A stretch of 61,589 bases of DNA. Source: Planctomycetota bacterium (lineage in GTDB: Bacteria > Planctomycetota > Planctomycetia > Gemmatales > Gemmataceae). A program made the position numbers and the translations under genes. Under the pieces are notes generated by a model. It was given only the letters and a program-made list of their open reading frames with translations, was not told where the DNA came from and searched no databases. Shown piece after piece: positions 4,350-53,125 of the stretch; within the stretch, counting starts at the first letter, position 1; each line of letters opens with the position of its first letter. The stretch is taken from positions 1 through 61,589 of the forward strand of contig JAKBCS010000009.1 of the NCBI GenBank assembly GCA_021807595.1, given 5' to 3'.

Positions 4350-5044
4350 GGTGGCTCTCGATGGTAGACCGTTGGATCGGGCAGGCCGGCGCGAAGGAAG
4401 GCGATCCGGCGCTCGGCACATTTGTTGCAAACTCCACAATGCTTGTTCTCGATGGGCCTCATGCACGAAAAAGTCCACTGCAACGGCAGAAGACGGCCGC
4501 GCCAAAGCACTTCCTCTTTGTGCATTCCACAGTACGGGCGGTCGATGCACACCGTCCCGTCGATCGCTCGATTGACCACCGCCCGATAGTCCGCGAAGAA
4601 CTCCGCCGTGGCATCGGCAAACGGATTGCTCTCCAAGGGAGCCAACGCCAACGTCGGCACCGAGCGCAGATGACACCACAACATCGCCTTGGACAGAAAC
4701 AAGACATTGCGCCCAGGCAGATAGACGGCTGCGTCCGGCGTGCCGGCCGCCGGAACGTCGATACCCGTCAGACTCCAGTGTTCGCCGTAGAGGTCGGTTA
4801 CTGGTACGTCGAGGATGGTCAGCGACTGAAGAGTGGGAGTGGCAACTGCGTCGAGAAAGCGACGTAGATAGCTCAACTCCGTCTCTTCCCAGAAGAGGCC
4901 GAAACGGACGTACAACGGCCAAACGGCCGAATGTCGAGGCAGCGATTCGGCAAGGAGAATAGCACTATCGAGACCGCCACTGACGAGAACGGCCAGCGCG
5001 GATGAGGCATCGGTGGCAGCAGAAGCAACATTCATCGCTATCAT
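4337..5044 (-). CDS. queC: 7-cyano-7-deazaguanine (preQ0) synthase
   Basis: ATP-dependent conversion of 7-carboxy-7-deazaguanine to preQ0, cytoplasmic. The PP-loop SGGLDS is near residues 22-27. Four cysteines that would bind zinc are at about 194, 203, 206 and 209 (CM...KHCGVCNKC). Length (about 235 aa) is normal. Start choice is uncertain: ATG 5044, ATG 5035 and TTG 5059 are in frame and none has a strong ribosome site. It overlaps queD by 13 bases, forming a two-gene unit; queE and folE are not in this window. The tgt gene near 37 kb belongs to the same modification pathway. Confidence 0.93.
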   Translation of the reverse strand: MIAMNVASAATDASSALAVLVSGGLDSAILLAESLPRHSAVWPLYVRFGLFWEETELSYLRRFLDAVATPTLQSLTILDVPVTDLYGEHWSLTGIDVPAAGTPDAAVYLPGRNVLFLSKAMLWCHLRSVPTLALAPLESNPFADATAEFFADYRAVVNRAIDGTVCIDRPYCGMHKEEVLWRGRLLPLQWTFSCMRPIENKHCGVCNKCAERRIAFLRAGLPDPTVYHREPPCSA

Positions 5045-5122
5045 TGTAGGAAGGGTCAATGGCGAGCGGCGAATCGACGGCTATTCCCGATCCGCGCTTC
5101 CCTTCTCCGTGGAGACTATCTC

Positions 5123-5917
5123 GTGCAATCCGAATGGAAAAATCGCTATGAAATCGCGGTAGAAGCCGCGCGCCAAGCCGGTCAGCTGGCGCGGCGCTAT
5201 TTCGACGGGTCTTTCGAGGTCGAATGGAAGGCCGATCTCAGTCCCGTAACCGTCGCCGACCGCGAGGCCGAGCAGCTGTTGCGCGCCAAGCTGCTCGATG
5301 CCTTTCCCAACGACGGCTTCCTCGGCGAAGAGTACGGAGACAGTCCGGGCACGTCCGGCTACCGTTGGATTATCGATCCCATCGACGGCACGCGCAGTTT
5401 CGTGCGCGGCATACCCCTTTGGGCCACCCTGGTCGGTTTGGAGTACAAGAACGAGCAGATAGCCGGGATCGCCGAGGCGGCGGCGCTTGGCTACAGCTAC
5501 CGCGCACTGCGCGGCGACGGTGCGTATCGGAATGACCGACGCATCCACGTTTCCAAGGTCGGCGAGTTGTCGCAGGCATTGATTTTCTATTCCAGCTTGT
5601 CGTGGTTCGTCAAAGCCGGCCGGCAAAAAACCTTCTTGGAGTTGATCCGGCGAACCGAGCGCAGCCGTGGTTTCGGCGACTTCTACGGTTTCGTATTGGT
5701 GGCCGAGGGGGCCGGCGAATTGATGGTCGAACACGGCGTCCATGCCTGGGACGTGGCGGCCATCAAACCGATTGTCGAAGAGGCGGGCGGGCGCTTCAGC
5801 GATTGGGACGGCGGAATCTCGATTCATCGACCCGACGTAATTGTCAGCAACGGCAAACTGCACGAGGAGGCGCGAGCTATTTTGCAGTCTGGCGAGGCCG
5901 GCGAACCGGCAGCGTAA
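5123..5917 (+). CDS. Inositol-monophosphatase family phosphatase, histidinol-phosphatase-like
   Basis: Mg-dependent phosphomonoesterase of the IMPase/FBPase fold, 264 aa. The metal and catalytic motifs GEE (68-70), DPIDGT (85-90) and WDVAA (209-213) are present. The segment GFGDFYGF followed by LVAEG resembles HisN-type histidinol phosphatases more than SuhB, so histidinol-phosphate is a reasonable substrate guess. GTG start at 5123 with GGAGA 7 bases upstream. The stop codon TAA (5915-5917) is the loop of the first hairpin of the tandem array that follows, and the last codons (G-E-P-A-A) are repeat-derived; the natural C-terminus appears to have been replaced. Confidence 0.87.
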   Translation: MQSEWKNRYEIAVEAARQAGQLARRYFDGSFEVEWKADLSPVTVADREAEQLLRAKLLDAFPNDGFLGEEYGDSPGTSGYRWIIDPIDGTRSFVRGIPLWATLVGLEYKNEQIAGIAEAAALGYSYRALRGDGAYRNDRRIHVSKVGELSQALIFYSSLSWFVKAGRQKTFLELIRRTERSRGFGDFYGFVLVAEGAGELMVEHGVHAWDVAAIKPIVEEAGGRFSDWDGGISIHRPDVIVSNGKLHEEARAILQSGEAGEPAA

Positions 5918-6195
5918 GCTGCCGGGTGAATTGCATAACCGGCAAGCGAACCGGCAGCGTAAGCTGTCGGGTGAATTGCATAACCCGCAGGCGAACCGGC
6001 AGCGTAAGCTGCCGGGTGAATTGCATAACCCGCAAGCGAACCGGCAGCGTAAGCTGCCGGGTGAATTGCATAACCCGCAAGCGAACCGGCAGCGTAAGCT
6101 GCCGGGTGAATTGCATAACCCGCAAGCGAACCGGCAGCGTAAGCTGCCGGGTGAAGCGTAAGCTGCCGGGTGAAGCGTAAGCTGCCGGTTCGCCA
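5900..6195. repeat. 45-bp tandem array of GTAA-loop hairpins
   Basis: Five 45-base units start at 5901, 5946, 5991, 6036 and 6081; a sixth at 6126 degenerates into 19-base reiterations. Each unit carries CCGGCAGC-GTAA-GCTGCCGG, an 8-bp stem with a four-base GTAA loop (GNRA type in RNA), then GGTGAATTGCATAACC. Units 4 and 5 are identical; units 1 and 2 carry single changes. The array is framed by a 14-bp inverted pair, GGCGAACCGGCAGC (5900-5913) and GCTGCCGGTTCGCC (6181-6194). Because 45 is a multiple of three, long spurious reading frames run through it on both strands. There are no unique spacers, so it is not CRISPR. Confidence 0.9.
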
Positions 6196-6355
6196 ACGGA
6201 TTTGCCGAACGTGCCGAATAATTCAAGAAGGAGGATTCTAACGACCGATACGATCACGGATGAGAGAACGTGTCCAGCGATTGCTGGCCGTTGGTGGGGG
6301 ACGATTCACGCCGGCATCCGCTGCGATGAACGGCGTGTTCTAGGGGGGCGCGAAT
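6196..6355. other. Upstream region of the BBP7 gene
   Basis: Short non-coding stretch between the hairpin array and the barrel protein gene. A G-run (GGGGGG, about 6342-6347) just before the ATG may serve as ribosome site. No other signal is recognised. Confidence 0.35.
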
Positions 6356-7687
6356 ATGTGCAGAGGCTGGAAGGGCTTGGCGCTGCTGGTAGGTTATGGG
6401 TTGTTGACCTTGCCGGCCCAGGCTCAAGTAGGCACTTATCCAAGTCCAGTGGGAGCGGCGCGGATGCCGGTACCGATCCCGGCAGATCCGTCGTCGATCC
6501 CCCCCGCGCCGAATTTGGTGCCTGGACCTATTAGTCCTCTCGCCGCACCCATGGGGCCCGACGATTCCTTCAGTCTGCCCGAAAACCATTCGAGCGCGTT
6601 TCAGACGGAGAATTACGTCCAAGAGTCCGGCGTTTATCTACACGTCGGCCCGATGGCTCTGCAGCGCAATCAACTCGGAGCGGGAGACATCGCCGTCAAT
6701 AACGCGGCGGTCCAAGGTCTCCCTCCGCATCTGTTGCCCAATGATTTCGCGCCTCCGCCACCTGGAACCGCAAGCGCCTTGAACTTCAACAGCGTCAATC
6801 CCGCGCTCTCGATGGGTATTCGCGGAACGGTTGGCTACCTCTGGCACGATCAGGCGATCGAGTTTTCCAGCTTCTACGTTTGGCAGAACAACGTATCGGC
6901 GACGGCCAACGATCCGCATTCGCTCGACACCTTGTTTTACAATCCCCCCTATGCCTTCCTCGGTCAGGGGTTGTATCGATTGGCAGATACCGTGCAACTC
7001 ACGCAGGGATCAAGCCTGTTCAACGCCGAAGCGAACTATCGCAAGCTCAACACGGTCTTCCCAGGCATGGAGTTCCTGATCGGGGCTCGCTACGTTCGCC
7101 AGAACGATTTCCTTAGCATCCTTTCGCAGGGGACATCGACAATCTTGCCCCCGCCGGGTCTCAGCATCGGTCAGGACGCTTCGATTTATAAGGTCATTAC
7201 CCACAACAACATCGTCGCTCCGCAGATGGGTCTCGAGTACGCCTACAACCCCTTCGCCTGGCTTACTCTATCCTGCATGGGCAAGGGAGCATGGGGTGCA
7301 AACTATTTGACGAGCGAAGTGAACCTGACGCGAAACGACGGACTGATTGGCTTCAATTCGATCCGTCACGCCACGGTCTTCAGCCAGATCTACGAATTGG
7401 GTGCCTTCGCCGATTTTAATTCGCCCTCTGGAAAGATGCGATTGCGGTTGGGCTATACCTCAACGTGGCTGATGGGAGTCGCCGACGCTCCGTCGCAGGT
7501 CAATTTCAACTTGTTGGGTGCCGAAGCCGTCCGGGCTTTCGGCCAGGCTAACTTCAACAACGTACTTAGCAACGGAAATCTTTCGCAGATTAATAATGCT
7601 CAGGGGAACATCCAACACGGTCGCGTCAACAACGACGGAACGATCCTCTACTTCGGCCCGCAGATTGAACTACAGTTCATGTTTTGA
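6356..7687 (+). CDS. BBP7-family outer membrane beta-barrel protein
   Basis: Likely an outer-membrane beta-barrel of the planctomycete-rich BBP7 family, 443 aa. It has an N-terminal signal peptide ending near AQA-Q (residues 22-24), a Pro-rich linker to about residue 70, then alternating amphipathic strands (for example IRGTVGYLW and IEFSSFYVW) and a terminal strand ending in aromatic residues, LQFMF, as in barrel proteins recognised by BamA. The Asn-rich segment near residues 400-425 fits an extracellular loop. The substrate or pore function is unknown. No enzymatic motif is seen. Confidence 0.8.
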   Translation: MCRGWKGLALLVGYGLLTLPAQAQVGTYPSPVGAARMPVPIPADPSSIPPAPNLVPGPISPLAAPMGPDDSFSLPENHSSAFQTENYVQESGVYLHVGPMALQRNQLGAGDIAVNNAAVQGLPPHLLPNDFAPPPPGTASALNFNSVNPALSMGIRGTVGYLWHDQAIEFSSFYVWQNNVSATANDPHSLDTLFYNPPYAFLGQGLYRLADTVQLTQGSSLFNAEANYRKLNTVFPGMEFLIGARYVRQNDFLSILSQGTSTILPPPGLSIGQDASIYKVITHNNIVAPQMGLEYAYNPFAWLTLSCMGKGAWGANYLTSEVNLTRNDGLIGFNSIRHATVFSQIYELGAFADFNSPSGKMRLRLGYTSTWLMGVADAPSQVNFNLLGAEAVRAFGQANFNNVLSNGNLSQINNAQGNIQHGRVNNDGTILYFGPQIELQFMF

Positions 7688-23092: not shown

Positions 23093-23362
23093 ATGCAGGA
23101 CCGCGCGTTTATTCGTCGCACACTCATCGAGTTATTGGAAGCCGACACGGGCGAAAATCACAGCGATCTGGATGAATCCGTCAATCTGCGCGAGGGGCTA
23201 GGTCTCGATTCGGTCGATGTCGTCAGCATCGTTTCGCAGATCGAACGCCGTTTTCACATTCGATTGACGCATCAAGAATTGGAGAAGCTCGTCGCCGTGT
23301 CCGACGTGTTGGATTTGCTGGAAGCGAAGTTGGCCGACACCTCGTCGAAGTCCGCCGCCTAA
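23093..23362 (+). CDS. Acyl carrier protein
   Basis: 89 aa carrier with the phosphopantetheine attachment motif GLDSVD (Ser40), acidic helices and the expected length. It is not next to fabD, fabG or fabF, so it is probably a dedicated rather than the housekeeping ACP. AGGAAGG precedes the ATG. It converges on an alpha-oxoamine synthase gene; in bacterial sphingolipid clusters a serine palmitoyltransferase and its own ACP are neighbours, so a role in supplying its acyl chain is a reasonable inference. Confidence 0.88.
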   Translation: MQDRAFIRRTLIELLEADTGENHSDLDESVNLREGLGLDSVDVVSIVSQIERRFHIRLTHQELEKLVAVSDVLDLLEAKLADTSSKSAA

Positions 23363-23370
23363 AATCGGAT

Positions 23371-23418
23371 GTCCGCGAAACGACAAGTCGAATCCCTTCG
23401 ATTTATCGTTTCGCGGAC
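23371..23418. terminator. Strong bidirectional hairpin between convergent genes
   Basis: A perfect 13-bp stem (23371-23383 with 23406-23418, GTCCGCGAAACGA and its complement) encloses a second 5-bp stem TCGAA/TTCGA (23388-23401). It sits 8 bases after the ACP stop and 6 bases before the end of the facing gene, so it can serve both. A half copy (TCGTTTCGCGGAC-like) occurs near 28910, close to the glmS stop. Confidence 0.65.
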
Positions 23419-23424
23419 AGTCCC

Positions 23425-24684
23425 TCATGCCGCTCGCCGAGCCACCGTCTCCGGCCCCGGCAGACGAATCACTTTCGATAGCTTCGTAATCGCATCGAGC
23501 AGTCCCGCAATGGACTCGGTGAGATGGTTGGCGTTGACCTGGATGCGCAACACTCCCGCATGATACGGCACGGCGGGGAATGTCACCGATTGGACGTAGT
23601 AGCCCTGCTCGAAGAGGTAGTTGCCTCCGTTGAGCGTGTCTTCCTCATCGCCGATCAGAACCGACAAGATCGGCGTTTGACCTCCCAAAACGACGAGATC
23701 CCGGTCGATCAATCCCTTGCTCAGTTGCCGAATGTTTCGATGCAGCCGGGCCGAGAGCAGTTCGTATTCCGCCGAATTGAGAATGTCGCAAACGGTGCAA
23801 ATCGCCTCGAGATAGCACGGAGCCACAGGACCGCCGAAGATGTAGGTGTTGGAACGCATCTTCAGCAAGCGCTTCATCTCGTGGGTGCAGCCGATGAAGC
23901 CGCCCATGCACGAAAAGCCCTTCGACAACGAACCGATGACGAGCGCGTTGTCGTAATCGCCCAGAGCATCCAAGACGGTGCCGCGTCCTTGCCTGCCCAT
24001 GACGCCGGTTCCGTGCGCGTCATCGACGTAGAGGATGGCTCGGCGTTGCAAGCAGACGCGATTGAGTTGCTCCAAAGGCGGCAACTCTCCGCTCATGCTG
24101 TAGACGCCGTCAATCGCGACCACGGCACAACGATACTCGCCCGCTTCGTCGAGAACCTTGGCCAACGCTTCGGGGTTGCAGTGCGAAAACGAGAACAGGC
24201 GCGTGCCGTTGGCCTTGGCGATTTTGGCCCCTTCCTGAATCGAGTTGTGCGCTTGCTCGTCGACCACTAGCACGTCTTGGCGACCGACCAAGCCGGGAAT
24301 GGCCCCCATGTTGGCGAGCGTGACGGACGGATAAATCAACGTCGCCTCGGTTCCCAGCCACTCCGCCAATTTATCTTCGGCATCGATGTTGGCTTGAATG
24401 CTTGAGAAGGCGCGCGACGCGCCATTGTGCGATCCCCAACGTCGGATGCCTCGGTGGAGCGCGTTCAGAACGCGCGGATCCTGATCCAATCCCAGGAAAC
24501 TATCGGAGCCGAAGTTGACGACTTTTTTGCCGCCGACTTCAATGACGCGATGGGGATCCATGCGTCCGACGACCATGTCTTTCATGTGCGTCGTTGGGAA
24601 AAGCTCGGCGAAATGTTCGATGAAGCGAATCAAGCCGTTCTGGCGTAGGGCGTTGGCCAGTTGCTGCATCGGGGAGACAATCAT
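23425..24684 (-). CDS. Alpha-oxoamine synthase (serine palmitoyltransferase / KAPA synthase type)
   Basis: PLP enzyme condensing an amino acid with an acyl thioester, 419 aa. The PLP lysine is K255 in GSLSKGF, the aspartate lies in VDDAHGTG (220-227), and a stacking histidine is in DEQAHNS (143-149). The SLSKGF...GGF context resembles serine palmitoyltransferase more than BioF (GTLGKA). No bio genes are near, and an ACP gene faces it. Start ATG 24684 has AAGAAGG upstream; the frame extends to 24768. BioF or 2-amino-3-ketobutyrate ligase remain alternatives. Confidence 0.82.
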   Translation of the reverse strand: MIVSPMQQLANALRQNGLIRFIEHFAELFPTTHMKDMVVGRMDPHRVIEVGGKKVVNFGSDSFLGLDQDPRVLNALHRGIRRWGSHNGASRAFSSIQANIDAEDKLAEWLGTEATLIYPSVTLANMGAIPGLVGRQDVLVVDEQAHNSIQEGAKIAKANGTRLFSFSHCNPEALAKVLDEAGEYRCAVVAIDGVYSMSGELPPLEQLNRVCLQRRAILYVDDAHGTGVMGRQGRGTVLDALGDYDNALVIGSLSKGFSCMGGFIGCTHEMKRLLKMRSNTYIFGGPVAPCYLEAICTVCDILNSAEYELLSARLHRNIRQLSKGLIDRDLVVLGGQTPILSVLIGDEEDTLNGGNYLFEQGYYVQSVTFPAVPYHAGVLRIQVNANHLTESIAGLLDAITKLSKVIRLPGPETVARRAA

Positions 24685-30821: not shown

Positions 30822-30978
30822 TACTGAGAGTCTGTTCCAGAAGCCCCTCTCCCCCTGTACTTGGGGGGAGAGGGGTTGGGGTGAGGGGGCGAGAAGCCAC
30901 GGAAAAATGCACCCCTCACCCCCAGCCCCTCTCCTCTGAGTACAGGGGAGAGGGGAGCTTTCGGAACAGACTCTGAGT
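30822..30978. repeat. Dispersed C-rich palindromic repeat, copy 2, with terminal inverted repeats
   Basis: Reverse-complement copy of bases 1-130: two palindromes (CCCCTCTCCCCCT/GGGGGGAGAGGGG and CCCCTCTCCTC/AGGGGAGAGGGG types) flank a GTGGCTTCTCGCC-type middle. The ends form a near-perfect 16-base inverted pair, ACTGAGAGTCTGTTCC at the left and GGAACAGACTCTGAGT at the right. This is MITE-like in layout, but no target-site duplication was established. It fills most of the gap between glmS and the SH3 gene. Confidence 0.75.
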
Positions 30979-40877: not shown

Positions 40878-40941
40878 GGTTAGCCACGACGCGCAGCGGA
40901 GCGCGCGGGCTGTCACGCTACACTGCGCGTCGCGGCTAACC
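40878..40941. repeat. GGTTAGC palindromic element, copy 2, overlapping the leuD stop
   Basis: Nineteen-base arms (40878-40896 and 40923-40941, GGTTAGCC...GCGCAG and its complement) match with one mismatch. The stop codon of leuD (40936-40938, minus strand) is inside the right arm. Lying between converging genes, it can serve as bidirectional terminator. Confidence 0.65.
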
Positions 40942-41496
40942 GAGCATGCCGCTCTTGCGAGCGAATGGGAAAATGCCGCCCGCTTCCAGGATGGGTGCGA
41001 CTTCGCCGAGCGGCTTCAGTTCGTATCGTTCGCCGGTGGTCAGATTGTGCATCGTGTGTGCGGCCACATCGAGACGCAATTCATCGCCGGTGCAGACGCG
41101 CTCACACAATCTTTCGACGCATTCCAGAGGGATCAAATAGCCGCCGTTTACCGAATTGCGATAGAAGATGCGCGCGTAGAACTCGGCGACGACGGCTTCG
41201 ATGCCGGCGGCGTCCAGCGCGATCGGCGCGTGTTCGCGCGAGGAACCACAGCCGAAGTTCTTGCCGGCGACGACGATTTTGTAGGGCGAGACAAACTCGT
41301 CGTCGGTGTGAAAGGGGACATGCCCCTTGGGCAATCCCGCTTGCGACGGCGGCACGCTGCTGAGCGCGTATTTGCCGAACTGCTTGTATTCCTCTGGGAT
41401 CGACGGATTGAACGTCAGATACTGGGCGGGGATAATCTGATCGGTGTCGATGTTATCGCCCAGGACATAGGCTTTGCCGGTGATGGTCGTTTGCAT
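40936..41496 (-). CDS. leuD: 3-isopropylmalate dehydratase small subunit
   Basis: Swivelling subunit of isopropylmalate isomerase in leucine synthesis, 186 aa. Family motifs GDNIDTDQIIPAQY (13-26), the FGCGSSREHAP active-site loop, and a YRNSVNGG segment are present. It pairs with LeuC encoded upstream, from which it is separated by a small aspartyl-protease gene. The stop lies in a palindromic element. Confidence 0.94.
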   Translation of the reverse strand: MQTTITGKAYVLGDNIDTDQIIPAQYLTFNPSIPEEYKQFGKYALSSVPPSQAGLPKGHVPFHTDDEFVSPYKIVVAGKNFGCGSSREHAPIALDAAGIEAVVAEFYARIFYRNSVNGGYLIPLECVERLCERVCTGDELRLDVAAHTMHNLTTGERYELKPLGEVAPILEAGGIFPFARKSGMLG

Positions 41497-53039: not shown

Positions 53040-53059
53040 CCGGCGGCTTACGCTGCCGG
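53040..53059. terminator. Single GCTTACGC-core hairpin
   Basis: CCGGCGGC-TTAC-GCTGCCGG, an 8-bp stem (one G-T pair) with a TTAC loop, 28 bases after the membrane protein stop. It is the reverse-strand form of the unit repeated in the array at 5.9 kb, followed by the same GGTTCGC flank. Confidence 0.6.
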
Positions 53060-53125
53060 TTCGCTTCGTGTATGATGGGGGTATGAGTGAGAACCCCTCT
53101 TGCTCTGGGAGACGGAGTGAGTACC

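Follow-up and report, generated by a model that had tools for sequence, protein, structure and literature searches.

A tandem array of tagged hairpins at the end of a hisN-like gene

The window analysed here is a 61,589-nucleotide stretch of a Planctomycetota bacterium of the family Gemmataceae (GCA_021807595.1, contig JAKBCS010000009.1). Near its left end lies a gene whose product matches the histidinol-phosphatase model TIGR02067 (E 4e-77, with a score just under the model cut-off) and which, judged from its sequence, is an IMPase-superfamily protein nearest to the histidinol-phosphatase HisN. The gene runs into an array of short hairpins, the features of which are collected in Table 1. TRF reports a 45-bp period with 5.7 copies and 97% matches over 5901-6155 and a repeat search finds five 45-bp steps, while reading of the sequence resolves six full 45-bp units followed by a pair of truncated ones and an inverted end. 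In each unit, a GTAA loop caps an 8-bp palindrome that carries a tag. The array closes on its 3' side with the inverted GGTTCGCC (6188-6195), and its two edges are the outer tags of a REPIN, GGCGAA on the left and TTCGCC on the right.

An earlier note on this DNA had described five near-identical 45-base units, each with an 8-bp stem and a GTAA loop. The period and the hairpin design both hold, whereas the full units number six and the stem of the second carries a mismatch. The same note correctly placed the stop codon of the IMPase gene in the first loop.

Table 1. Coordinates of the array, the gene it terminates and a further REP in the window
Feature	Position	Strand	Basis
HisN/IMPase-superfamily gene	5123..5917	+	ORF, 264 aa; final residues GEPAA and stop read from first REP
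TAA stop codon within first loop	5915..5917	+	ORF and sequence reading
Tandemly expanded REPIN	5900..6195	+	GGCGAA at 5900, inverse TTCGCC ends at 6195; TRF, repeat search
REP unit 1 (tag, stem, GTAA loop, stem, GT)	5900..5927	+	Sequence reading
REP unit 2, one stem mismatch (CTGTCG)	5945..5972	+	Sequence reading
REP unit 3	5990..6017	+	Sequence reading
REP unit 4	6035..6062	+	Sequence reading
REP unit 5	6080..6107	+	Sequence reading
REP unit 6	6125..6152	+	Sequence reading
Secondary 19-bp duplication of half-palindromes, overlapping the 45-bp array	6136..6188	+	TRF, 2.8 copies, 100%
Terminal inverted REP arm bearing the outer tag	6174..6195	-	Inverted repeats I1-I6
Further REP of the GGCGAA family, single copy	53041..53065	-	Palindrome search and context

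The array unit belongs to a dispersed REP family

A genome search for the unit, proposed in the earlier note as a check, identified it as a dispersed REP element. With up to one mismatch allowed, the 18-bp palindrome CGGCAGCGTAAGCTGCCG matches 131 times across the 5.67-Mb genome and its reversed control not once, a copy number far beyond chance. The element has the consensus GGCGAA-CCGGCAGC-GTNA-GCTGCCGG-GT and is frequently an inverted pair with its tags facing outward; this inverted doublet ('+-') is the most frequent type of REP cluster in the window genome (13 of 56). Copies of the tagged pattern number 157 in the window genome and 420 in a sister species of the same genus (Planctomycetota bacterium isolate BP6.bin110, JAJXWW01). 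Two other congeners have 2-4 copies, two members of the wider family have 23 and 21, and the rest of the 95 genomes have 0-2.

Among 300 copies, each of the six unpaired tag bases is 96-99% conserved, a figure due in part to the selection of copies by their tag (no more than one mismatch allowed over the first 8 bases), and the unpaired tag is conserved at least as well as the stem. One stem pair varies in both ways, with compensated (27 G-C) and uncompensated (28 T.T) changes. The family loop is GTNA, and about one fifth of the GTNA-loop copies read GTTA or GTCA. REP arrays also stand at the ends of contigs C7, C24, C89, C92, C128, C231, C241 and C260 of the window genome. With so many contigs ending in this way, the assembly is evidently cut by the arrays, which explains why the genome breaks into contigs at them and means that unit counts may be collapsed.

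REPs close to gene ends supply host stop codons

Gene context was assessed with a home-made gene caller in 0.74 Mb of the window genome and 1.03 Mb of the sister species, in stretches that lie mostly around REP copies. Of 147 clusters, 14 are intragenic. Beside the intergenic ones, a REP lies within 15 bp of the gene end for 74 of 108 3' ends (69%) but for 13 of 104 5' ends (13%). Stop codons lie inside REPs in 32 cases at 106 clusters, mostly through the reading GGC GAA CCG GCA GCG TAA. The REP family also accounts for gene predictions that terminate in GEPAA. Both the supply of stop codons and the closeness to 3' ends have already been described for GTAG REPs (PMC3733652), so this part of the pattern is not new. 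At one further site a REP stands at the start of a reading frame, with a 42-nt (14-codon) difference in length between the sister species (L099 13832-13859) and the window genome (L146 near 2491).

At the hisN-like gene, the window protein ends in ILQSGEAGEPAA and its counterpart in the sister species in ILQPADLGEPAA, both stopping within the repeat. The proteins of two congeners with no GGCGAA repeat at this locus end differently, in ILRVTSDR and ILQEYPK. This comparison supports the earlier suggestion that a repeat placed at the 3' end altered the C-terminus of the protein. The orthologous locus of the sister species is 88-91% identical, and there too the stop comes from a REPIN. The tandem unit of that REPIN measures 56 bp, is present in 3.0 copies (TRF) and takes in the gene's own 3' end. 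The simplest reading is a single insertion before the two species split, followed by separate expansion in each. Copy number differs at 13 of 16 distinct REP sites shared by the two genomes, and the expansion and length variation that had been expected from the near identity of the units are thus borne out.

Tandem arrays are common in both species (TRF; 24 of 56 clusters in the window genome and 53 of 91 in the sister species), with about 30 different periods between them and a maximum of 14.8 copies. Junction analysis of 81 head-to-tail runs did not single out one expansion mechanism: 26 runs fitted a permissive rule for simple flank-plus-REP duplication, and the boundaries were variable.

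A planctomycetal RAYT clade and its GGYGAR tag

The sister species encodes a 184-aa Y1 transposase (C78:12561-13112) with GGCGAA-family REPINs in direct repeat on both sides of the gene, whose own stop codon lies within a REP. The protein matches Y1_Tnp (PF01797) above the cut-off. Its best match is the NCBIfam model REP_Tyr_transpos, at 43.6 bits against a cut-off of 80, and the same model matches all 28 members of the set at E <= 0.001. The AlphaFold model of the protein (pLDDT 90) matches the ISDra2 and IS608 transposases and the RAYT-REP complex 4er8. Relatives of this RAYT are present in 62 of the 95 family genomes. The HuH motif, the catalytic Tyr and a Gln (His97, His99, Tyr159 and Gln163) are invariant among the relatives. 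Relatives that carry a name come mostly from Gemmataceae or other Planctomycetota.

No RAYT gene of this type was found in the assembly of the window genome. The flanks orthologous to those of the sister-species gene lie near the end of C24 and near the start of C231, and in each case the contig runs out within a REP array. This leaves the absence of the gene from the genome unproven, with an assembly gap as a likely reason. The only PF01797 match in the window genome, a gene on C104, has no GGCGAA REP nearby and so is probably not the cognate enzyme. Hairpins GCGGACTGAAGTCCGC and GCCGCTAAAGCGGC lie downstream of this gene (around 23111-23455, L049), and together they are possibly a different RAYT/REP pair.

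Hairpins beside the RAYT relatives carry a common tag. Alongside 30 family relatives, GGYGAR is found at 63 of 97 hairpins, compared with 5 of 67 farther off at the same loci (p = 1.5e-14), and in a wider, overlapping set of 78 loci across Planctomycetota it is found at 90 of 235 near hairpins and 5 of 163 controls (p = 9e-19), although these p-values overstate the certainty because hairpins in one locus, and loci in one lineage, are not independent. Within the 78 loci, GGCGAG ranks first among all hairpin-foot 6-mers (21 loci near, 1 control), and no enrichment beside the clade was seen for GTAG, CGTC or CnGA, the last occurring at 48 of 235 near and 44 of 163 control hairpins. By the criteria used, a tagged hairpin is missing from 44 of these loci.

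For GTAG REPs, others have demonstrated that a guide sequence precedes the hairpin on its 5' side (PMC8266576), and the combination of a conserved unpaired tag, a hairpin and a GTNA loop fits the same arrangement here. The GGYGAR tag appears to differ from those described (GTAG, CGTC and CnGA). We hold with about equal belief and doubt that it defines a third REP tag class, served by a separate RAYT clade that is widespread in Planctomycetota. In such a class, hairpin bodies would vary by lineage while the tag stays fixed, and insertions would hug gene ends closely enough for the element to form, as a regular matter, the stop codon and last residues of the host gene. With differing hairpin bodies and a common tag, the clade amounts to a natural experiment on RAYT recognition.

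Relationship to described REP and transposase systems

Like this family, the GTAG and CGTC REP superfamilies (PMC3733652) consist of short hairpins preceded by an unpaired 5' tag; they form inverted dimers and tandem clusters, lie at gene 3' ends and give stop codons from their REP termini. Membership of those superfamilies goes by the tag, however, and the tag is GGCGAA here and GGYGAR across the clade; furthermore, the stop codon is a TAA in the loop rather than the TAG in the tag of GTAG REPs. The REPINs and RAYTs of Pseudomonas fluorescens SBW25 (PMC3116915) are alike in having an inverted REP doublet as the unit and a REPIN-flanked RAYT, and SBW25 tandem clusters likewise comprise flank plus REPIN. 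The tag and the RAYT clade differ from those of SBW25, and the tandem unit in the window is half a REPIN.

Of the published groups, TnpA-Y1 class 3 (PMC6006769) comes nearest; it is mostly planctomycetal and flanked by many-copy non-GTAG hairpins. Its Tyr...Gln signature and its conserved N-terminal region are both like those seen here, although the signature, invariant in the RAYT relatives as Tyr159 and Gln163, is common to class 1 also. The hairpin foot of class 3, going by its published description, is CnGA, in contrast to GGYGAR. The fold and HuH/Tyr/Gln motif of the sister-species RAYT are those of IS200/IS605 transposases (IS608, ISDra2); unlike those elements, no compact left/right-end element was seen, and the gene is flanked by many-copy REPINs. 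Overall, the REPIN is of an ordinary kind, while the tag class and the RAYT clade look new.

Origin of the array

We have high confidence in the REP/REPIN identity of the array. Very probably it is a locally expanded REPIN, made of two inverted REP hairpins with outer GGCGAA/TTCGCC, from a lineage-specific REP family, and most likely a near-neutral by-product of RAYT/REPIN activity. The palindromic element is probably transposase-driven, and we place moderate confidence in RAYT-driven mobility of the REPINs. The RAYT described above, working in trans on hairpins of single-stranded DNA, would have inserted a REPIN at the end of the hisN-like gene, with the tag perhaps serving as its guide sequence. 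Readthrough into the outer tag would then have yielded Gly-Glu-Pro-Ala-Ala-stop, and later tandem duplication may have amplified one half of the REPIN by slippage, recombination or RAYT strand transfer. No function of the array itself is required to account for it. The array may still have a secondary effect, either on the transcript 3' end or on translation close to the stop.

Several observations weigh against this account. The RAYT gene is absent from the window genome's assembly, tagged hairpins are missing near roughly half of the RAYT relatives by the criteria used, and many arrays are not simple flank-plus-REP duplications. In addition, the few alignments of empty and filled sites are divergent and ambiguous and show no clean insertion footprint.

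The earlier note had seen the array, as RNA, as a row of GNRA-capped stems suited to transcript protection or protein binding. We consider it improbable that such a row is kept for protection of the hisN transcript or for protein binding. The predicted RNA is very stable (z -7.6), but its predicted fold pairs the units among themselves instead of forming a row of stems, the GTTA and GTCA loops of the family are not GNRA, stem mismatches have been amplified without compensation, and the unpaired tag is no less conserved than the stem. Placement of REPs at gene 3' ends would suit such a device, as would the report, cited in PMC12306157, that in E. coli a REP lying no more than 15 nt from a stop codon can reduce translation; the family is nonetheless dispersed in a mobile-like manner, and the array lacks an intrinsic terminator. 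Scans for intrinsic terminators and promoters found none, and nothing in window 5000-7000 came near the gathering score of any Rfam model. Mobile DNA accounts for the array better than an RNA device does.

A MITE of a DDE transposon, with the 28-bp tag-plus-palindrome as the terminal inverted repeat of a cut-and-paste transposase, is a still fainter prospect. Inverted pairs with conserved outer ends do resemble short terminal inverted repeats, yet each end is itself a REP-like hairpin with an unpaired tag, and the transposase found flanked by the element is of the Y1 type, with a tag common to its clade; no DDE element with such ends was noticed. Least credible of all is selection of the GEPAA-stop tail itself as a REP-encoded C-terminal tag on host proteins: about 30 genes in the two genomes, the RAYT included, get their stop from a REP, mostly in the GEPAA reading, but this follows from a sequence in which one of three frames through the outer tag meets the loop TAA, and many REPs sit just past an existing stop.

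Read as an expanded REPIN, an apparently special 3'-end structure becomes one example of a mobile repeat system. The finding also draws attention to a RAYT clade whose guide tag has apparently not been described before.

Other palindromes in the window and its relatives

Another palindrome family (GGTTAGCCGCGACGC...GCGCGTCGCGGCTAACC) occupies window 40878-40943, a place taken in the sister species by a GGCGAA REPIN array; GGTTAGCCGCGACGC is present in 14 copies in 0.74 Mb of the window genome and in 34 copies in 1.03 Mb of the sister species. Window 30840-30975 holds a long inverted repeat (CCCCTCTCCCC...GGGGAGAGGGG), and the surrounding stretch is about 150 bp longer than in the sister species. 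In the congener G002 (L052), a third, unrelated palindrome (TTTAGCTGCGAGCCGAAGGCGCGC...) stands immediately 3' of the IMPase stop, so the same gene end holds different palindromes in different species.
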